Source of the DNA: an uncultured Schlesneria sp.
Lineage (GTDB): Bacteria > Planctomycetota > Planctomycetia > Planctomycetales > Planctomycetaceae
Direction of reading: 5' to 3'
Assembly (NCBI GenBank): GCA_903834925.1
Contig: CAILLA010000091.1
Location: 1 to 64,000 of the forward strand
DNA: 64,000 nt
The translations under genes and the position numbers were made by a program. A model generated the notes under the pieces. The model searched no databases. It was not told the origin of the DNA and saw only the letters and a program-made list of their open reading frames with translations. Positions 45,424-53,724 of this stretch are shown in pieces (positions within the stretch are counted from its first letter, which is position 1; each line of letters starts with the position of its first letter).

Positions 45424-45822
45424 ATGTTCGCAGTATTTGAAGACGGTGGTCGTCAATTTCGAGTCCAAAACGGCGATGTTCTTGCCATTGATTATCGAAA
45501 TGATGTGAGTGACGGTCAGGTCATTACGTTTGACAAAGTTCTGCTCGCAAATGGCGGTGGCCCAAGTATTGTCGGCCAACCTCTGATTTCTGGGGCAACC
45601 GTCACCGCTGAGATTGTGACGGCACAGTTAAAAGGCTTGAAGCTGGAAATCCAGACTTTTCATCGCCGAAACGCGTCCAAGCGTCACACCGGACATCGCC
45701 AGAAATACACTCGAATCAAGATTACTGGGATTTCGATCCCGAACCTGCAGGTTATTGAGCGGCCAAAGGCAACCGAAAACTCCGCTTCGGAAGCCCCGTC
45801 AGTAGCCACGACCGCGACCTGA
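45424..45822 (+). CDS. rplU: 50S ribosomal protein L21
   Basis: This 132-residue L21 is a 23S rRNA-binding protein of the large subunit. It starts MFAVFEDGGRQFRVQNGD and has VLLANGGGPSIVGQPL and the conserved RRNASKRHTGHRQKYT RNA-binding loop. It is longer than E. coli L21 (103) because of a C-terminal Ala/Thr/Ser-rich tail. AAGGTCG precedes ATG 45424. rpmA (L27) and obgE usually follow rplU; here a strong terminator follows instead, so the common rplU-rpmA operon is split. Confidence 0.95.
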   Translation: MFAVFEDGGRQFRVQNGDVLAIDYRNDVSDGQVITFDKVLLANGGGPSIVGQPLISGATVTAEIVTAQLKGLKLEIQTFHRRNASKRHTGHRQKYTRIKITGISIPNLQVIERPKATENSASEAPSVATTAT

Positions 45823-45857
45823 TTTCGGTTTTCGGTCGAATTGAACGAATTTTTTGA

Positions 45858-45888
45858 ACGTGGGACGAGAAATCGTCTCACGTTTTTT
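45858..45888 (+). terminator. Intrinsic terminator after rplU
   Basis: ACGTGGGACGA (45858-45868) pairs with TCGTCTCACGT (45873-45883), with one G-T wobble, across a GAAA tetraloop. It is followed at once by a run of T. This is the clearest intrinsic terminator in the window and ends the RNase-rplU transcript 36 bases after the rplU stop. Confidence 0.9.
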
Positions 45889-46032
45889 GTTTCTTTGTGA
45901 TCGATTTTTGTTGAAGCCTGGACGATTTGAATTTTCGATTTCTCAGAATTTTCTCCCATTCGCCTGCATATGTTCGATTTCCTGCAATCGTTTATCGTTC
46001 ATGTAACCCTCCAAGAAGCACTATTTAGATAC

Positions 46033-46058
46033 ATATGACACATTCTGAAGTGTCATAT
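46033..46058. promoter_or_regulatory. 9-bp inverted repeat, possible operator
   Basis: ATATGACAC (46033-46041) and GTGTCATAT (46050-46058) form a perfect inverted repeat with an 8-base spacer. TTTTC follows, so a weak terminator is also possible. It lies about 300 bases upstream of the sigma-factor gene. The dyad size suits a dimeric repressor or activator. No regulator for it is identified. Confidence 0.45.
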
Positions 46059-46302
46059 TTTCAATGACAAAAACCGGCTTTGGAAGATTGGGATAAATGG
46101 GATGAGTGAACGTTTTGAACGTTGCGCGAATTCACCAGAATTAACTGAGCGTTAACTAATTCGCAGCAAAAAAACACAGCCAAAATGGCTTTTAATCAAA
46201 AAGTACATAAAAACATGGGGTTTAATCAAATTTCAGAAAAACGAAAAAAAACAGGAAAAATTCTCTTGCCGATCTGAATCGATCGACTACTATCTCCCAG
46301 CC

Positions 46303-46329
46303 GAACGATTTGAACGATTTGAACGATTT
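46303..46329 (+). promoter_or_regulatory. Three tandem GAACGATTT repeats before the sigma gene
   Basis: GAACGATTT occurs three times without gap at 46303-46311, 46312-46320 and 46321-46329, ending 33 bases before ATG 46362. The 9-base period is near one helical turn. It could be a repeated protein-binding site or part of the 5' leader. Function is inference. Confidence 0.5.
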
Positions 46330-46361
46330 AACTTTTCCCCGATGGGCAGTGGACGATTATC

Positions 46362-47297
46362 ATGTTGGCAGGTTTATCAATGAACGAATTCAACGTCAGC
46401 AAGAATCAATTGCGATTGGAACGAATTTTGAAGATGAAGATTGAATTCATCGAAAGTGATGAGTTTGAATCGATGCTGTCAACGCGAATTCGTCCTGGCG
46501 TGTTTGAGACGGTTCCACCGAACCCATCAACGAACTCTAATATTAGCAGTGATTCCGAAAACCTCGCTTGCCTTGCACCAGCGTTGGGTGAGGCCCTGCT
46601 GTCGTTCGCCGAAGAGCAACATGAATTTCGCCGACTGAACTTCTTGAAGTTCCAAGCTGCTCGATTGCAAGCGTCGATTGACGCGGATCAGCCAGATGCC
46701 AATATCCTTGATCAGATTGAGCGATTGCTTGCTGAAGCCAAAGACGTCCGCGATCATATTATCCGGTCAAATATGCGACTCGTCATCTCCAATGCCGGGA
46801 AGTACTGCACCGCAAGCTATGGTTTTGAAGATCTGGTAAGCGACGGTTCGTTGTCGCTGATGGAAGCGGTTGATAAATTCAACTACCAACTCGGTTTCCG
46901 ATTCAGCACATACGCCACCCACGCAATTCGACGAAGCTTCTTCCGACGAATTGAACGAAAGCAGAAAGATCGCAAGCGATTTTCTGTCACTGACCCTGAG
47001 ATTATGATGACCGCCCCTGATACGCAGGAAGTTGACTATGATGCTCCAGCAGAAAATCAGCTGATGGCACACATGGTTGAAGTCATGTCAGAACACCTCA
47101 CAGAACGCGAACGCCAGATCATCGAAGGCCGATTCGGTTTAAATGGTCGAAGCGAGCCTTTGACTCTGATGCAACTTTCGGCCGAGCTTGGGATCTGCAA
47201 AGAACGAGTTCGTCAAGTTGAAGGAACCGCCTTGAAGAAACTGCATGCTGTTGCGGTCAAGTATTCAAAACAACAACTCGCGTCGGCAAAGGCATGA
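46362..47297 (+). CDS. Sigma-70-family RNA polymerase sigma factor (non-ECF)
   Basis: This 311-residue sigma-70-family factor has region 2 at about residues 131-205: HIIRSNMRLVISNAGKY, FEDLVSDGSLSLMEAVDKF and FRFSTYATHAIRRSFFRRI, the last containing the -10 recognition and melting residues. Region 4 is at about 235-300 (LTERERQIIEGRFGLNG and LGICKERVRQVEGTALKKL, the -35 helix-turn-helix). A variable N-terminus of about 90 residues replaces region 1.1, and region 3 is short. It is larger than ECF factors and smaller than RpoD. ATG 46362 or 46380 may be the start. Its stop overlaps the DUF1295 start in ATGA, so it is translationally coupled to the lipid-modification genes. No anti-sigma gene is adjacent. 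Confidence 0.88.
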   Translation: MLAGLSMNEFNVSKNQLRLERILKMKIEFIESDEFESMLSTRIRPGVFETVPPNPSTNSNISSDSENLACLAPALGEALLSFAEEQHEFRRLNFLKFQAARLQASIDADQPDANILDQIERLLAEAKDVRDHIIRSNMRLVISNAGKYCTASYGFEDLVSDGSLSLMEAVDKFNYQLGFRFSTYATHAIRRSFFRRIERKQKDRKRFSVTDPEIMMTAPDTQEVDYDAPAENQLMAHMVEVMSEHLTERERQIIEGRFGLNGRSEPLTLMQLSAELGICKERVRQVEGTALKKLHAVAVKYSKQQLASAKA

Positions 47298-48088
47298 GTC
47301 TCGAACCTGCATCACAACTTGCTCTGGCTTTGTTGTTCGCCGCCCTTTTCATGCTCCTGCTGTGGTGTATTCAATGGCGAACTCGTGATGCAGGCGTTGT
47401 CGACGTCGGTTGGTCAGGCTGTCTCGGCCTTCTGGCACTCTTCTACGGCACGACGCTTCCCCATTGTACGCCGCGAACGTGGGTGGTCGTCGTGATCGCA
47501 AGTATCTGGTCCGTGCGTCTGGCTTTCTATTTGCTTCGTGATCGTGTTCTAGGAAAACCCGAGGATGGTCGCTATCAGAAGTTGCGAGTCGGGTTTGGGG
47601 CACGAGCGAACCTGTTTTTTTTCGGATTCTTTCAGTTTCAGGCCCTGCTCGCCTGGTTCTTTTCGCTGGCTTTCTGGCTGGCAATGCGACGAAGTGACCC
47701 GATGGATGCTTGGGATCTCATCGGCATCTCGATCTGGGCGACCTCCGTCGTCGGTGAAACTCTTGCCGACTCCCAATTAGCCCGCTTTCGCGCCGACCCA
47801 TCCAATCGAGGAACAACCTGTCGGAATGGGCTGTGGAAGTATTCGCGTCATCCCAATTATTTCTTTGAATGGCTGCACTGGTGGACTTACGTCGCGATCG
47901 CGTGGATATCCCCGTGGGGTTGGCTGACCGTTTTAGCGCCGGCGCTGATGCTGTTTTTCTTATTCAAAGTCACCGGTATCCCCGCGACGGAAGCGCAAGC
48001 TTTGATCAGTCGCGGCGACGACTACCGAAAATATCAGCAGACAACTAGCATGTTCGTTCCTTGGTTCCCGAAAAAGTTTCCGAATTGA
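47294..48088 (+). CDS. DUF1295 membrane protein (steroid 5-alpha-reductase-like)
   Basis: This 264-residue integral membrane protein of the DUF1295 family is related to steroid 5-alpha-reductase and isoprenylcysteine methyltransferase folds. Spans are visible at about 8-25, 40-60, 65-82, 105-130, 137-155 and 198-230. The C-terminal cofactor-binding motif is present: GLWKYSRHPNYFFEW, then FLFKVTGIPATEAQ. The family is thought to use NAD(P)H or SAM on lipid substrates. ATG 47294 overlaps the sigma stop by 4 bases. Genes of this family recur next to CFA synthase, DUF1365 and FAD oxidoreductase genes, exactly as here, supporting a membrane-lipid role. Confidence 0.85.
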   Translation: MSLEPASQLALALLFAALFMLLLWCIQWRTRDAGVVDVGWSGCLGLLALFYGTTLPHCTPRTWVVVVIASIWSVRLAFYLLRDRVLGKPEDGRYQKLRVGFGARANLFFFGFFQFQALLAWFFSLAFWLAMRRSDPMDAWDLIGISIWATSVVGETLADSQLARFRADPSNRGTTCRNGLWKYSRHPNYFFEWLHWWTYVAIAWISPWGWLTVLAPALMLFFLFKVTGIPATEAQALISRGDDYRKYQQTTSMFVPWFPKKFPN

Positions 48089-48106
48089 TTTGAACATGGG
48101 TATTGA

Positions 48107-49147
48107 ATGTTGTCCGGTGTCGAACTTGCTGAACGAGGTTGGCTTCCTGATCAACTGATCCGATTCGGGATCCGACGGCTGCTTGCTGCGCGTCTTCGAG
48201 AAGAATCGCGGATGGGATGCGAGGGTCTAAGCGAACTGAATCGGAAGTTTGTTGCGGAATTGCGTCAAAGTCCCATCGCACTTCATACCGCTTCGGCGAA
48301 TGAACAGCACTACGAAGTCCCCGCATCCTATTTCGAGTTGGTCCTCGGTCCGCATCGCAAATACAGTTCTTGTCTTTGGAATGCTGGAGTCGTCGATCTG
48401 GCTGTTGCCGAACAGGACATGCTCCGGGTGACCGGCGAGCGAGCCGATTTGCATGACGGAATGGAAATCCTGGAACTTGGTTGCGGCTGGGGTTCACTCT
48501 CCCTCTTTATGGCCGAACGATTTCCCCGCAGCAAGATTCTTGCGGTTTCGAATTCCGCATCCCAGCGAAAATTCATTCTCGACCAGGCGGCCTCTCGTGG
48601 CTTTTCGAATCTTGTCGTCGAAACGGACGATATGAACGATTTTCAAACCGACCGTACTTTCGATCGGGTGGTTTCGGTCGAAATGTTCGAACACATGCGC
48701 AACTATGAAGAGTTGTTTGCGAGAATCTCGCGCTGGCTGAAGCCAAAGGGAAATCTTTTCACTCACGTTTTCTATCACGGGCGATGTGCCTATCCGTTTG
48801 AAACCGATGGAAACAACGACTGGATGGCACGGCACTTTTTCACCGGCGGACTGATGCCGTCGGCGGATTTGTTTCTAGAATTCCAGCGAGATTTGTTATT
48901 CGAAGATCGTTGGCTGATCAACGGACAACATTATCAGAAGACGCTTGAGGCCTGGCTGATACGTCACGATGCATCGCGCGAGAAAATCCTTCCCTTATTC
49001 CAGGAAACGTACGGCAAGGAACTGGCAAACGTGATGTTTCAGAGATGGAGAATGTTCTATCTCGCGTGTGCAGAGTTGTTTGGCTATCGAGAAGGCGAGG
49101 AGTGGGGTGTTGCTCATTTCCTGTTTTCCAAACGCGAGGGAAAATGA
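48107..49147 (+). CDS. CFA-synthase-like SAM-dependent methyltransferase
   Basis: This 346-residue class I methyltransferase of the cyclopropane-fatty-acid synthase/coclaurine N-methyltransferase-like group has the SAM motif ILELGCGWGSLSLFMAE (about residue 125). It is preceded by NEQHYEVPASYF, with GPHRKYSSCLW then VAEQDML, and is followed by FDRVVSVEMFEHMRN. The N-terminal domain of about 85 residues is helical. The likely substrate is an unsaturated acyl chain or another lipid. It starts 18 bases after the DUF1295 gene, with a weak ATGGG ribosome site. It is clearly distinct from the second enzyme of the cluster at 51387, so the cluster encodes two methyltransferases. Confidence 0.85.
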   Translation: MLSGVELAERGWLPDQLIRFGIRRLLAARLREESRMGCEGLSELNRKFVAELRQSPIALHTASANEQHYEVPASYFELVLGPHRKYSSCLWNAGVVDLAVAEQDMLRVTGERADLHDGMEILELGCGWGSLSLFMAERFPRSKILAVSNSASQRKFILDQAASRGFSNLVVETDDMNDFQTDRTFDRVVSVEMFEHMRNYEELFARISRWLKPKGNLFTHVFYHGRCAYPFETDGNNDWMARHFFTGGLMPSADLFLEFQRDLLFEDRWLINGQHYQKTLEAWLIRHDASREKILPLFQETYGKELANVMFQRWRMFYLACAELFGYREGEEWGVAHFLFSKREGK

Positions 49148-49252
49148 ACGATTCACTGGGGTTTAAGCTCTAGAATCAGATTTCTGAGCAAGCCTCTATC
49201 AAATTAAATTCCTGAACGAAGTTAATCGCCGGGGAGGAACCAAGGCCAAAAC

Positions 49253-50494
49253 ATGAAGATTGCCATCATCGGGACCGGAATCTCGGGAATGGTTGCCGCA
49301 TGGCATTTGAACCAGAAGCACTCCATCACTGTCTTTGAAGCGAACGACTATATCGGCGGGCACACTCACACCGTTCCCGTCGAAAAAGAGGGGCGTTCGT
49401 ACGCGATTGACACGGGATTTATCGTTTTCAACGAACGAACCTACCCGAATTTTTGTCGGTTGCTTGATCGGCTGGGCGTCGCATCGCAGGAAAGCGAAAT
49501 GAGCTTCAGCGTGAAATGCGAGCGGACAGGACTGGAATATTGTGGCACGTCACTCAACACACTTTTTGCCCAACGGACGAATCTGTTCCGCCCGTCATTC
49601 CTGAGCATGTTGATGGAAATCATTCGATTCAACCGTCAATCCCCTGAATTATTGTCCGAAGAATCCGACGAAATTTCATTGGGAGATTATCTGGATCAGG
49701 GTCGCTACTCACGGACGTTTCGTGAAAATTATCTGATCCCGATGGGAGCCGCGATCTGGTCAACTTCGCCGTCGAAGATGTTAGAATTTCCGGCTCGCTA
49801 CTTTATTCAATTCCTCGTCAATCACGGGCTTGTCACTCTGACCGATCGTCCAATCTGGCGAACAATCGTCGGTGGATCGTGGAAGTACATTGATCGCCTG
49901 ACCGATCCATTTCATGACCGAATTCGAATGAATTGCCCTGTGATTTCAGTGCGTCGAACCGAAGATTCCGTCGAAGTGACTTCATCATCTGGTTCTGAAC
50001 GATTCGATCAGGTTGTGTTTGCAACCCACGGTGATCAGGCGCTGCGACTTCTCAGTGACGCAAGTCCTCTCGAACGTGAGGTCTTAACCCCGTTTGTCTG
50101 CTCAAAGAACGTGGCTGTGCTTCACACGGATGCATCGTTATTACCGAAACGGCGTCGAGCATGGGCCAGCTGGAATTACCACTTATCGAATAGCCCGCTG
50201 GATGCACCTTCGGTGACTTATCAGATGAACATCCTTCAGCGGCTGAATTCTACCGATCCGTTTTGCGTGACTCTTAACAGGGAAGACGCCATTCGTCCGG
50301 ACAAGATTCTGGGAAGATTTGTGTATGAACATCCAATCTATTCTCCTGCTGCGGTCTTGTCTCAACGTCGCCACTCCGAGATCAGCGGAATCCACCATCG
50401 AACACACTTTTGCGGTGCGTACTGGGGCTTCGGATTTCATGAAGACGGCGTGAAAAGCGCTCTGGTTGTGGCTAACGCGTTCGGTATCGATTAG
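49253..50494 (+). CDS. FAD-dependent amine-oxidase-like oxidoreductase (UfaD-like)
   Basis: This 413-residue flavoprotein has an N-terminal FAD motif IGTGISGMVAAWHL, then VFEANDYIGGHTHTV. The mid-domain has AIDTGFIVFNERTYPNF and the C-terminal segment is THFCGAYWGFGFHEDGVKSAL. It belongs to the NAD(P)-binding amine-oxidase-like group found beside CFA synthase and DUF1365 genes. In Rhodobacter a related protein (UfaD) desaturates methylated acyl chains on the path to furan fatty acids; that function here is inference. ATG 49253 has GGGGAGGAACC upstream. A gap of 105 bases after the methyltransferase is the longest inside the cluster and could hold a second promoter. Confidence 0.87.
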   Translation: MKIAIIGTGISGMVAAWHLNQKHSITVFEANDYIGGHTHTVPVEKEGRSYAIDTGFIVFNERTYPNFCRLLDRLGVASQESEMSFSVKCERTGLEYCGTSLNTLFAQRTNLFRPSFLSMLMEIIRFNRQSPELLSEESDEISLGDYLDQGRYSRTFRENYLIPMGAAIWSTSPSKMLEFPARYFIQFLVNHGLVTLTDRPIWRTIVGGSWKYIDRLTDPFHDRIRMNCPVISVRRTEDSVEVTSSSGSERFDQVVFATHGDQALRLLSDASPLEREVLTPFVCSKNVAVLHTDASLLPKRRRAWASWNYHLSNSPLDAPSVTYQMNILQRLNSTDPFCVTLNREDAIRPDKILGRFVYEHPIYSPAAVLSQRRHSEISGIHHRTHFCGAYWGFGFHEDGVKSALVVANAFGID

Positions 50495-50542
50495 AAGTGA
50501 CCGGTCACAACTCAAAAAAACGCTGATCGTCAGGGCCGGGTC

Positions 50543-51382
50543 ATGCAGAGTGGCATTTATGAAGGAACGGTTCGTCATCGAAGATTCGAGCCTGTTCGTC
50601 ACGAATTTCGCACGCCTCTTTTCATGATGTATCTTGATCTCAACGAACTTCCGAACGTGTTTTCAGGTCGATGGTTCTGGTCCATTGAAAATTGGAATCT
50701 TGCCACGTTCCGTCGACGAGACCATTTCGGTGACAAAAATCAGACGCTGGACGAAACCGTTCGAAACCTTGTCGAAGATAAATCCGGTAACCGTCCAGTC
50801 GGACCAATTCGGCTGCTGACTCATTTGAGTTACTTTGGATATTGCTTCAATCCATTGAGTGTCTACTTTTGTTTTGATGAAAGTGGAAATCACATTCAAT
50901 GCATCGTGGCTGAAGTCACAAACACACCGTGGCGAGAACGACACTGTTATGTCTTGCCTGTTATCGACGCGAAGCAGAATCATCAGGCGGCGTCATCAGG
51001 CGAACCGGAAAAGCTCAAGTTTCGATTTGCCAAGTCGTTTCACGTTTCTCCCTTTATGACGATGGATTTTGAATATCGATGGAATCTGGTCGGTCCAGGC
51101 GATCAACTGGTACTCCAGGCCGAGAATTGGCGTGGCGAAAAACCTTCTTTTGATGCGACTTTGAATCTCAAGCGAAAAGAAATCTCGACCTGGTCTCTCG
51201 CTCGGGTTCTAGTTATGTATCCATTGATGACAGCACAAGTTATGGCGAACATCTATTGGCAGGCTTTTCGTCTGTGGTGGAAGCGGATTCCATACGTTCC
51301 TCATCCTGAAACTTCCCGATTGGACGAACCAGATAAGATCCCACAAACGGAAACTCCGACCCAAGATTCAATACAGAACTGA
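50543..51382 (+). CDS. DUF1365 protein
   Basis: This 279-residue DUF1365 protein starts SGIYEGTVRHRRFEPVRHEF. Conserved motifs include LLTHLSYFGYCFNPLSVYF, VAEVTNTPWRERHCYV, KFRFAKSFHVSPFMTMDFEY and, near the C-terminus, a hydrophobic LARVLVMYPLMTAQVMANIYWQ segment that may lie on the membrane. The biochemical function is unknown; it nearly always sits with the FAD oxidoreductase and CFA synthase. The start is ATG 50543. It precedes the CFA synthase gene by only 4 bases, so the two are coupled. The context supports a role in acyl-chain modification or handling. Confidence 0.88.
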   Translation: MQSGIYEGTVRHRRFEPVRHEFRTPLFMMYLDLNELPNVFSGRWFWSIENWNLATFRRRDHFGDKNQTLDETVRNLVEDKSGNRPVGPIRLLTHLSYFGYCFNPLSVYFCFDESGNHIQCIVAEVTNTPWRERHCYVLPVIDAKQNHQAASSGEPEKLKFRFAKSFHVSPFMTMDFEYRWNLVGPGDQLVLQAENWRGEKPSFDATLNLKRKEISTWSLARVLVMYPLMTAQVMANIYWQAFRLWWKRIPYVPHPETSRLDEPDKIPQTETPTQDSIQN

Positions 51383-51386
51383 CAAC

Positions 51387-52682
51387 ATGAGCAGCATTAC
51401 CGAATCGCAATCAACTCTGTCATTGGATAATTATTGCCAGGAACGCGATGTCTCTCCTCGTTGTCTGCGGGAAAAATTCGCGAGGAACGCAGTCATCTCG
51501 CGTCTGAAAGGGATCGAACACGGGAAGATCACGCTCGTCGAAGGAACTTCCCAGCAAACGTTTGGGCAAACGACCTTGAATTGCCCGCTGCATGTGACTT
51601 TGATAGTTCAACGATCACGGTTTTATCCGCGAGCGGCATTCGGCGCAGACCTCGGTGCTGCCGAATCGTTTATGGACGGCGACTGGTCCTGTGACAATCT
51701 TACCAATCTGGTCCGAATCCTGATTGTGAATTCGCAAACGCAAGCGGCGAAACCGGGATGGATTTCCTTTTTGTTTGAGCCGCTTTATCAAATCGCTCAT
51801 CGACTCAACCGGAATACCAAGCGAGGAAGCCGAAAAAACATTGCGGCCCATTACGATCTGGGAAACGATTTTTTCAAGCTGTTTCTCGATGAAACTATGA
51901 TGTATTCCGGCGGCATTTACGAGTCTCCGGACAGCACGCTTTTCGATGCCTCGACAGCGAAGAACGAACGCATTTGTCAAAAACTGCGGCTCTCTCCACA
52001 GGATCATCTTTTAGAAATCGGAACAGGCTGGGGTGGGTTTGCTCTGCATGCGGCCAAGAATTTCGGCTGTAAAGTGACAACGACCACGATTTCACGCGAA
52101 CAATTTGAATTCGCAACGCAGCGAATCGCCGATGCAGGACTGAGCGATCGCGTCACGGTGGTCATGCAAGATTACCGTGACCTGAAAGGTCAGTATGACA
52201 AACTGGTCTCGATCGAGATGATCGAAGCTGTCGGCCATGAATTCTTTGATACCTACTTTGAATGCTGCAGTCGATTATTGAAACCTGAAGGTCTGTTCGT
52301 TCTACAAGGGATTACGATCGCCGACCAACTCTATCAAGGCTACATCCGTAGGGTCGATTTTATTCAGCGATACATTTTCCCTGGCGGGTGTCTACCTTCA
52401 GTGACACACGTCTGCGACGTTTTGACTCGCTCGACCGATCTCCGTTTAACTCACCTTGAAGACTTTGCTGTCCATTATGCAAAAACCCTTCGCGATTGGC
52501 GTGCAAGGTTCTTAAATCGGATTGCTGACGTAAAACAACTTGGGTTTGATGAACGCTTTATTCGAATGTGGGACTACTACCTCTGCTACTGCGAGGGGGC
52601 CTTTCTCGAACGAAACTGCGGTCTGGTACAACTAGTTCTCGCCAAACCCGGATGCCGATCAAACTCGTTAGACGCTCAATAA
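51387..52682 (+). CDS. Cyclopropane-fatty-acyl-phospholipid synthase family enzyme
   Basis: This 431-residue methyltransferase of the CFA synthase (CMAS) family adds a methylene or methyl group from SAM to double bonds of membrane acyl chains. The N-terminal domain of about 120 residues binds lipid. NIAAHYDLGNDFFKLFLDETMMYSGG is a family hallmark (split here as NIAAHYDLGNDFFKLF and LDETMMYSGG). The SAM loop is LEIGTGWGGFALHAA. SIEMIEAVGHEFF holds the conserved active-site Glu, and FIQRYIFPGGCLPS is also conserved. It is the last gene of the cluster, ending just before a nested palindrome. It may act as an UfaM-type methylase rather than a true cyclopropane synthase. Confidence 0.9.
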   Translation: MSSITESQSTLSLDNYCQERDVSPRCLREKFARNAVISRLKGIEHGKITLVEGTSQQTFGQTTLNCPLHVTLIVQRSRFYPRAAFGADLGAAESFMDGDWSCDNLTNLVRILIVNSQTQAAKPGWISFLFEPLYQIAHRLNRNTKRGSRKNIAAHYDLGNDFFKLFLDETMMYSGGIYESPDSTLFDASTAKNERICQKLRLSPQDHLLEIGTGWGGFALHAAKNFGCKVTTTTISREQFEFATQRIADAGLSDRVTVVMQDYRDLKGQYDKLVSIEMIEAVGHEFFDTYFECCSRLLKPEGLFVLQGITIADQLYQGYIRRVDFIQRYIFPGGCLPSVTHVCDVLTRSTDLRLTHLEDFAVHYAKTLRDWRARFLNRIADVKQLGFDERFIRMWDYYLCYCEGAFLERNCGLVQLVLAKPGCRSNSLDAQ

Positions 52683-52688
52683 ACACGC

Positions 52689-52826
52689 TGTCAAACTTCT
52701 GAATTAGGATCTTGTGCCACTGCTTCGGAGTCTTCGAAGAAGCAGTCTCTTCTTGTTCTGCCGATGAAAGAGCACTGTATGAGCGAAGACGATCATACAG
52801 TTGCACCCTAATTCAGAAGATTGACA
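52689..52826 (-). repeat. Nested palindrome with GTCTTC-loop hairpin, full copy 3
   Basis: This 138-base structure lies between the convergent CFA synthase and lipase genes. The outer arms TGTCAAACTTCTGAATTAGG (52689-52708) and CCTAATTCAGAAGATTGACA (52807-52826) match at 19 of 20 positions. Inside is a member of the GTCTTC-loop family, with stem ACTGTATGA/TCATACAGT (52774-52801) and a stem sequence unlike the other copies. It may work as a terminator for both genes. Confidence 0.8.
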
Positions 52827-52857
52827 AAACACAAGCAGGATCGGCTCTTGATCGTTC

Positions 52858-53724
52858 CTAATTCTTGCCCATTAGCCGCTCGATCATGCTGTGATAGCTG
52901 GGCATCAAATGGGCATCGACAGTTTGTGCCACCGCTTTCCAGACATCGTCGATCAGGGTCCCTTGTATGACTCCGTTGGCCGATCGACTCAAGAACTGGG
53001 TGAAAAGAGCCACCGAGGATGAGGCGCCCGGCCCGACTCCGGTCGACATTTCTTTTTCAACGTGACCATAATCATTCGCAATCAGGCTCATTGTTGGCAG
53101 CTTGGGGACTGGATCGGGGCCGTTCACGTACCGAAAAATCTTTCCGGCAAGTTCTCTGTCAAAGGCTTTCGACGCCTCAACATTGCCGATCATGGGGCCA
53201 CCAAACGTATAGACCTGATGGACGCTCACGAATTTTCGTGTAAACAACCACGTACTCAAAACGGCCAGGGCTCCACCAAGGCTATGTCCCGTAATCCACA
53301 ATGGACGGTCAGCTCGTTTGATTTCGTCTTCAACACCAGAAAACAATGGCCGCCAAATGTCATCCAACGCGTTGATGAACCCTTGATGAAACCGTGCTCC
53401 GACCCCGGCTGCCGCAAAATCGGTCCCCAGTCGTCCGGTGGGCAGGATCAATAGATTGACAGCATCCGATAGCAGCCAATCTTTCAGACCTTCAAAGGTC
53501 GTGGGAGATTCAGTTCCCCGAAATGCGACAACGATGTTATTCGCATTTTGCGCGATATATGCCTGAGTATTCCCGACGCTGATCAGCCGAGCGTCGAGTC
53601 CCAGCTGGGCTGCAAACTCTGCTTTCCCAAGATCTTCTGGAAGGTATGCCAGTTCGGATGCCTTTGCCAGGGCCTGTGCATTTCGGTGGTCACCGAACGA
53701 ATCTTCAAAAAGTTCTAAAACCAT
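52858..53724 (-). CDS. Class 3 lipase-like alpha/beta hydrolase
   Basis: This 288-residue lipase (class 3 type) of the alpha/beta-hydrolase fold has its nucleophile Ser148 in WITGHSLGGALAVL. The likely acid is Asp in NGPDPVPKLP and the likely base His in PSYHSMIERL near the C-terminus. VVAFRGTESP carries the oxyanion region of the family, and YTFGGPMIGN follows. There is no signal peptide, so it is predicted to be cytoplasmic or exported by another route. It has no operon partner: it converges with the CFA synthase and is divergent from the Dabb gene. The substrate is unknown, with triglyceride or phospholipid the usual choices. Confidence 0.88.
   Translation of the reverse strand: MVLELFEDSFGDHRNAQALAKASELAYLPEDLGKAEFAAQLGLDARLISVGNTQAYIAQNANNIVVAFRGTESPTTFEGLKDWLLSDAVNLLILPTGRLGTDFAAAGVGARFHQGFINALDDIWRPLFSGVEDEIKRADRPLWITGHSLGGALAVLSTWLFTRKFVSVHQVYTFGGPMIGNVEASKAFDRELAGKIFRYVNGPDPVPKLPTMSLIANDYGHVEKEMSTGVGPGASSSVALFTQFLSRSANGVIQGTLIDDVWKAVAQTVDAHLMPSYHSMIERLMGKN

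Follow-up and report, generated by a model that had tools for sequence, protein, structure and literature searches.

The closest described relatives of the system treated here are light and lipid regulons of other bacteria, cited from extracts of the respective papers. The system itself is a six-gene operon headed by a sigma factor gene in an uncultured Schlesneria sp. (contig CAILLA010000091.1 of GenBank assembly GCA_903834925.1; 9.0 Mb in 307 contigs), of which positions 1 to 64,000, hereafter the window, were analysed. In Streptomyces coelicolor the MerR-type regulator LitR switches on the sigma gene litS in light, and LitS drives carotenoid output genes (PMC12705666). Pseudomonas has class II LitR proteins (PplR/PmlR); light induces ufaM and phrB in Pseudomonas mendocina, and the pmlR1 region holds a FAD oxidoreductase gene (PMC9758184). 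The RSP1087-1091/ufaM genes of Rhodobacter sphaeroides are under chrR control and encode a cyclopropane fatty acid synthase (CFA)-like methylase, UfaM, the FAD desaturase UfaD, related to phytoene desaturases, and the DUF1365 oxygenase UfaO; furan fatty acids rise on loss of chrR (PMC7380195). Adenosylcobalamin photoreceptors of the CarH type are recognised by a Wx9EH motif and by the axial histidine of D/ExHxxG/P, and the published CarH operator consists of 11-bp direct repeats nnnnTnnACAn with the core TnnACA (PMC9304148). In Vibrio cholerae, blue light acts via ChrR and a MerR-type protein (PMC5241685).

By sequence comparison, the planctomycete locus is a conserved variant of these light and lipid regulons. 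With modest confidence, we propose that a CarH/LitR-like repressor encoded in trans gates the sigma gene and the lipid genes as one unit. As in LitR-LitS, a MerR-type regulator of the LitR/CarH family would control a sigma gene; LitS, however, is an extracytoplasmic function (ECF) factor with a carotenoid output, whereas the sigma factor here is RpoD-like, lacks region 3 and lies in a lipid operon, and relatives of the regulator lack the cobalamin histidine. The regulator family, a candidate ufaM-type gene and a FAD oxidoreductase gene are shared with the class II LitR system. The class II proteins keep just the helical-bundle B12 subdomain, whereas both B12 domains are matched in 7 of 8 relatives here, and no sigma factor is named for Pseudomonas in the available part of PMC9758184. 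The DUF1365 (PF07103) and FAD desaturase families of Rhodobacter are both present. The differences are an additional DUF1295 protein and second methyltransferase, a sigma gene inside the operon, a predicted transcriptional operator and the lack of ChrR among the genes scanned.

Among the papers listed by literature searches, judged by titles, abstract starts and term counts, there was no study joining planctomycetes with CarH/LitR and lipids and no light-regulon study for this bacterial order. The available parts of the planctomycete genome papers PMC11588811 and PMC4807772 hold nothing on a CarH/LitR-lipid link.

Operon organization

The operon (46362-52682) consists of six genes on the forward strand. 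They were read from open reading frames (ORFs), and all six Pfam assignments are above the curated cut-offs.

46362..47297, + strand: sigma-70 family factor with regions 2 and 4 and without region 3, 311 aa (Pfam Sigma70_r2 and r4)
47294..48088, + strand: DUF1295 membrane protein with weak steroid-reductase/ICMT-like similarity, 264 aa (Pfam DUF1295)
48107..49147, + strand: CFA-superfamily methyltransferase (MT), 346 aa (Pfam CMAS)
49253..50494, + strand: FAD oxidoreductase of the amine oxidase/NAD_binding_8 family, UfaD-type, 413 aa (Pfam Amino_oxidase/NAD_binding_8)
50543..51382, + strand: DUF1365 protein, UfaO-type, 279 aa (Pfam PF07103, 281 bits)
51387..52682, + strand: CFA-synthase-type methyltransferase, UfaM/CFA-type, 431 aa (Pfam CMAS)

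The sigma stop overlaps the DUF1295 start as ATGA at 47294-47297, and the gaps downstream of DUF1295 are 18, 105, 48 and 4 bases. ORFs and Pfam bear out the six genes, the sigma length, the common strand, the gaps and the overlap given in an earlier note on this DNA. The furan fatty acid enzyme families that it had named were also matched (FAD as UfaD-type, DUF1365 as UfaO-type, the CFA-like enzyme as UfaM-type), these labels being matches at the family level. For an S-adenosylmethionine methylase acting on unsaturated acyl chains there are two candidates, both assigned by family to the CMAS superfamily. In the PDB comparison the 431-aa protein matched CFA synthase (6bqc) with 205 bits. The 346-aa protein, described in the note as CFA-like, does belong to the CMAS superfamily, but its best PDB matches were plant coclaurine-type N-methyltransferases (6gkv, 228 bits) and not CFA synthase (6bqc, 106 bits). 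The FAD oxidoreductase gave weak CrtD/CrtI matches in NCBIfam. A lipid stress role of the operon is plausible.

Conservation of the linkage

Gene content, co-directionality, overlap, linkage, operator-regulator tracking and the missing region 3 were all computed. Genomes are labelled G and loci L; G000 is the window genome and P0001 the window sigma. A total of 117 DUF1365 regions of the order was compared (116 fetched plus the window), some of them on short contigs. Related sequences fall into tree groups, so the counts are not independent, and Fisher tests were made without correction for kinship.

A sigma of the P0001 clade adjoins the operon in 31 of the 117 DUF1365 loci. Layout A, sigma-DUF1295-MT-FAD-DUF1365-CFA, occurs in four genomes (G000, G143, G145, G146), and layout B, sigma-FAD-DUF1365-CFA-DUF1295-MT, at 21 loci, some cut by contig ends. 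The sigma gene follows DUF1295 at three loci (C+) and is divergent from FAD at three (D). Behind the sigma gene, layout A is a circular permutation of the layout B gene order. Two loci with partial sigmas at contig ends, L131 and L174, were left out of the 31. The sigma of L149, 5 kb from the operon, was rejected as linked, as it falls outside the clade; in the remaining regions no sigma was shown. P0001-like sigma ORFs numbered 33 (two partial) in 1.03 Mb around the operons versus one in 0.79 Mb farther out in the same regions. Together with the 31 loci, this control rules out an accident of one genome.

The ATGA overlap of sigma and DUF1295 is kept in all four layout-A genomes, and a 4-bp overlap of sigma and FAD is seen in G076 and G079 (FAD starts chosen by rule). 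The earlier note had taken the sigma gene as part of the operon and had proposed a search of related genomes for the overlap; overlap and linkage were both found. The stretch between sigma and FAD, inspected in layout B for a second promoter, proved to be coding sequence in genus g10. A gene for a DCC1-like thiol-disulfide oxidoreductase lies between sigma and FAD in that genus (L099:11575-12006; Pfam at one locus, alignment of eight).

In G148 an orthologous sigma gene stands downstream of rplU, as in the window, with no lipid operon behind it; in G135 the ortholog lies alone, about 5.6 kb from rplU and unlinked to the lipid operon. A FastTree tree was built on the concatenated proteins of 65 complete operons. 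In it, layout A clusters with 22 operons (support 1.0), and same-genus operons lie outside. Of these 22, the 14 listed by name have the layout B gene order, four of them (G051, G052, G053, G089) with no sigma in the region. The DUF1295 (1.0), CFA (0.93) and MT (0.77) trees agree with it in direction. The DUF1365 tree places layout A nearest G076/G079 (0.70), and the FAD tree disagrees with the concatenated one, the closest neighbours of layout A in it being G080 and G065/G066. Pairing of this sigma type with the operon seems to have had more than one origin.

Five of the six C+ and D loci (L155, L165, L176, L190, L196) carry, next after the sigma gene, a gene with weak AhpC/TSA (redoxin) similarity. 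It occurs also in genomes without a CarH/LitR-like regulator, and its product is a possible alternative redox partner or other input at those loci.

Predicted promoter and operator

The operon is preceded by rplU, and the following features were located between the two.

45856..45885, + strand: rho-independent terminator-like hairpin 3' of rplU, 13-pair stem and T tail, the longest of 11 stems (aligned among four genomes)
46107..46125, + strand: second, weaker operator-like site TGAACGTTTTGAACGTTGC, with 2 mismatches to TGRACGWWTTGRACGWWTT and 21.3 bits by position weight matrix (PWM)
46266..46293, + strand: predicted sigma-gene promoter, read by eye, with -35 TTGCCG (46266-46271), a 16-nt spacer and -10 TACTAT (46288-46293)
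46303..46329, + strand: candidate operator of three tandem 9-bp repeats, GAACGATTT, directly after the -10; sole site with 0 mismatches to TGRACGWWTTGRACGWWTT in the 9.0-Mb assembly

Given the 13-pair hairpin, the operon is probably separated from rplU and starts on its own; weaker hairpins, of up to 8 pairs (49099-49120), occur within the operon too. The -35 and -10 boxes look ordinary and housekeeping-like by eye. They are aligned in G143, G145 and G146, and similar boxes were seen by eye in the leaders of G135, G144 and G148. A consensus promoter scan returned 3 sites versus 6.7 in shuffled sequence and missed the proposed boxes.

The repeat TGAACGWTTTGRACGWWTT is a 9-bp direct repeat of the unit TGAACGWTT. 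Exact GAACGATTTGAACGATTT has two listed occurrences, both at the 46303-46329 operator. The window holds 5 sites with at most 2 mismatches to TGRACGWWTTGRACGWWTT versus 0.12 expected. A site at 48624, in the 346-aa gene, was set aside, since it lies in codons giving similar matches in the gene copies of L106 and L168. Of nine genomes of the genus, five have perfect sites (G000, G143, G145, G146 and G137); apart from G137, each of these assemblies has its single perfect site at the sigma promoter. A 1-mismatch site stands before the sigma gene and another before the unlinked lipid operon in G135, and the sigma site has 2 mismatches in G144 and G148. G137, which has no DUF1365 or DUF1295 match, carries two strong sites at C101:20570-20797.

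Across the fetched regions (1.9 Mb) there are 183 PWM sites of at least 12 bits versus 5 in reversed controls, counts that are partly circular, the PWM having been trained on the same regions. A site of at least 16 bits precedes the sigma or FAD gene (SIG/FAD) at 24 of 25 layout A and B loci; the exception, L156, has its sigma at a contig end. By eye, the site lies just after the -10 in A and C examples and upstream of the -35 in B examples, and it is found before FAD also where no sigma lies in the region (L133, L148, L154). This shift in position and this occurrence without sigma rule out the repeats as a promoter element of the sigma factor. Operator-like sites were also seen before or near genes for fasciclin-domain, pyrroloquinoline quinone (PQQ)-propeller, SOUL heme-binding and NmrA/DUF2867 proteins (L149, L126, L104, L142, L203), which are candidates for the same regulon.

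CarH/LitR-like regulator

Genes beside the sites encode proteins of the LitR/CarH family with HTH_17/MerR and B12-binding domains. All eight relatives matched HTH_17 and B12-binding_2, and seven matched B12-binding (E <=1e-3, several of these matches below the Pfam cut-offs). The window genome has a single homolog, on another contig (C20:5228-6109, E 5.6e-114). In the order the regulator is present at E <=1e-20 in 121 of 170 genomes: 101 of the 117 that have DUF1365 and 20 of the 53 that lack it (Fisher p 5e-10, uncorrected for kinship). A phylum sample of 246 genomes was reduced to 233 by leaving out 13 of the same family; 33 have the regulator, 58 DUF1365 and 20 both (p 2e-6, again uncorrected for kinship). 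The regulator and DUF1365 genes are 1.6-2.1 kb apart in 8 genomes, which belong to two families.

The operator tracks the regulator. Among loci that have the regulator nearby, 33 of 52 show a site of at least 16 bits before SIG/FAD, compared with 11 of 49 where the regulator lies elsewhere in the genome and 0 of 16 where it is missing; anywhere in the region, the figures are 45/52, 13/49 and 1/16 (G102). The regulator gene lies within 4 kb in 26 of 70 hand-typed sigma rows, divergently in 25, and at several mapped loci the sites lie between it and a divergent sigma or FAD gene. This tracking, together with the sole perfect site at the sigma promoter, makes a repressor acting in trans the likely switch rather than a self-amplifying sigma. 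Control is probably exerted at transcription, by a repressor encoded on C20 in this genome.

The likeness to CarH of Thermus, Bacillus megaterium and Myxococcus extends to a helix-turn-helix with two B12 subdomains and to a tandem direct-repeat operator at the promoter (PMC9304148). The core TGAACG resembles the CarH core, TnnAC being kept. Several observations weigh against the proposal nevertheless. The repeat period is 9 bp and not 11 bp. Most B12-binding matches fall below the Pfam cut-off. The motif reads Wx9ER for Wx9EH, with W and E each in 53 of 54 relatives and R for H in 54 of 54; Tyr replaces the axial His in 53 of 54, where PDB 8jbs has His. These residues were read in relatives; the homolog of the window genome is known by position and match. 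By the criteria of PMC9304148 the relatives are no B12-type CarH proteins, which weakens light sensing through B12 as a reading. A 16-bit site before SIG/FAD is missing from 19 of the 52 loci that have the regulator nearby and from 38 of the 49 where it lies elsewhere, some contigs being short. The G148 operon has just a 12.4-bit site. In G102, with no detected regulator, a 33.7-bit site precedes a fasciclin gene. Of the six C+ and D loci, five are without a 16-bit site, three of them in genomes from which the regulator is absent; since linkage persists there, it does not need the regulator. LitR promotes litS expression in the available part of PMC12705666, whereas repression is proposed here. 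Our confidence was slightly lowered because of the G102 site and the description of LitR as an activator.

Sigma factor

The window sigma aligns with regions 1.2-2 and 4 of primary sigma factors, and PDB alignments skip region 3; the linker between regions 2 and 4 has 47 residues versus 106 in four RpoD rows. It thus consists of regions 2 and 4, the two-domain layout of ECF factors. ECF sigmas carry an ECF-type region 4 (Sigma70_r4_2), and their cognate anti-sigma is usually adjacent; in Rhodobacter sphaeroides the ECF factor RpoE is paired with the anti-sigma ChrR. The window sigma matches Sigma70_r4 (PF04545); its genome has 45 PF08281 matches, none of which is this sigma. Its best NCBIfam scores, far below the cut-offs, were with the MzaA and RpoD/RpoS models, and it is above the cut-off of the superfamily model TIGR02937 (sigma70-ECF). 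The earlier statement that the factor is not ECF is partly wrong: RpoD/RpoS-type models are nearer to the sequence, but the domain layout, without region 3, is that of ECF sigmas. No anti-sigma was found among four flanking genes scanned with Pfam (ribosomal L21, RNase E/G, lipase, trypsin-like protease), in agreement with the earlier note.

His-Ala occupies the position of a WW pair in RpoD, which we take to be the tryptophans of the -10 reading region. The -10 preference of the window sigma may possibly differ from that of RpoD.

In a tree of 99 sigma sequences, ECF sigmas left out, the window sigma falls in a clade of 40 (support 99/92), of which 31 adjoin the lipid operon. The remaining nine comprise the G135, G144 and G148 orthologs, which share 63-67% identity with the window sigma, two 750-aa forms (L009, L010) and the sigmas of L011, L013, L018 and L289. 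Clade sigmas of G090 (L210:9534-11804) and G094 (L010) lie in frames of about 750 aa, a long N-terminal part of which has no match. They stand divergent to a CarH-like gene, and DUF1365 has no match in these genomes.

Other features of the region

A miniature inverted-repeat transposable element (MITE)-like element lies 3' of the operon at 52689-52826, with 20-nt terminal inverted repeats (95%). A 145-base query gave 52 matches in its own genome, self included. No Rfam match was found in 45700-53000.

Proposed mechanism and alternatives

From these data we infer binding of the repeats by the regulator, repression, a light signal, a fatty acid product and sigma targets. The MerR-type repressor of the CarH/LitR family (C20:5228-6109) would hold off transcription of the six-gene unit by sitting, in trans, on the three tandem 9-bp repeats that overlap the predicted transcription start of the sigma gene. 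A signal, most likely light or light-made singlet oxygen, would release it, and sigma factor and lipid enzymes would be produced together. The enzymes would methylate, desaturate and oxidise acyl chains of membrane phospholipids; the product would probably be methylated or furan fatty acids that quench singlet oxygen, and one of the two methyltransferases could correspond to UfaM, the other to a second methylase. The sigma factor would redirect RNA polymerase to further protective genes, a feed-forward arm like that of LitR-LitS in Streptomyces, although no sigma-dependent promoter class was identified, a further point against the proposal. Such a switch would amount to an uncharacterised light or oxidative stress response. 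The induction of ufaM and phrB in Pseudomonas mendocina and the ChrR/MerR-type pathway of Vibrio cholerae lend weight to light.

The strongest alternative, which we regard as unlikely, is that the repeats are the site of another regulator, of two-component or redox type, which co-occurs with the CarH/LitR-like gene, and that the signal is redox or envelope stress and not light. The changed cobalamin residues, the 9-bp period, the strong site of G102 and the weakly redoxin-like genes of five C+ and D loci would all fit. It is opposed by the sites lying between the regulator gene and a divergent sigma or FAD gene, by the lack of any strong site before SIG/FAD in the 16 regulator-free genomes and by the shared TnnAC core.

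Improbable, too, is the self-amplifying switch of the earlier note, in which the sigma factor would itself be the sensor output and drive its own operon in the manner of RpoE, but without ChrR and with no repressor needed. The gene is the first of the operon and overlaps the next, its His-Ala pair may (the roles of these residues being presumed) let it read its own promoters, and layout D keeps it by the operon in genomes that lack the regulator (G016, G101) or have a fragment of it (G100). However, its own promoter showed no sigma-specific element. Conserved there are a -35/-10 pair of ordinary appearance and an operator that tracks the regulator, and this operator also stands before FAD at L133, L148 and L154, where a sigma gene elsewhere in the genome is possible. 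Least probable is that the operon landed behind an existing sigma gene without a lipid role and borrows its promoter: the operon-free orthologs of G148 and G135 and the fact that the layout-A operon groups with B-order operons in the concatenated tree, and not with those of its own genus, agree with this, but another sigma lineage adjoins the operon in layouts B and C+/D, and in G135 sigma and operon each carry the operator.

Implications

The repressor proposal names a concrete operator, regulator family and output for a bacterial order on which our searches listed no light-regulon study, and it connects membrane lipid chemistry with a class of sigma factors that lack region 3. It opens to test furan or methylated fatty acids as a conserved photoprotective output, and CarH-like signalling without the cobalamin ligand. 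A wider and more doubtful proposition, offered tentatively, is that in planctomycetes a light- or oxidant-responsive regulator of CarH/LitR ancestry with Tyr for the cobalamin axial His controls a class of sigma factors that lacks region 3 and has a promoter specificity of its own, and that sigma, regulator and operon have been repeatedly joined, separated and re-joined under one shared operator. If this is true, such a regulator would sense through another chromophore, a partner protein or a reactive product.

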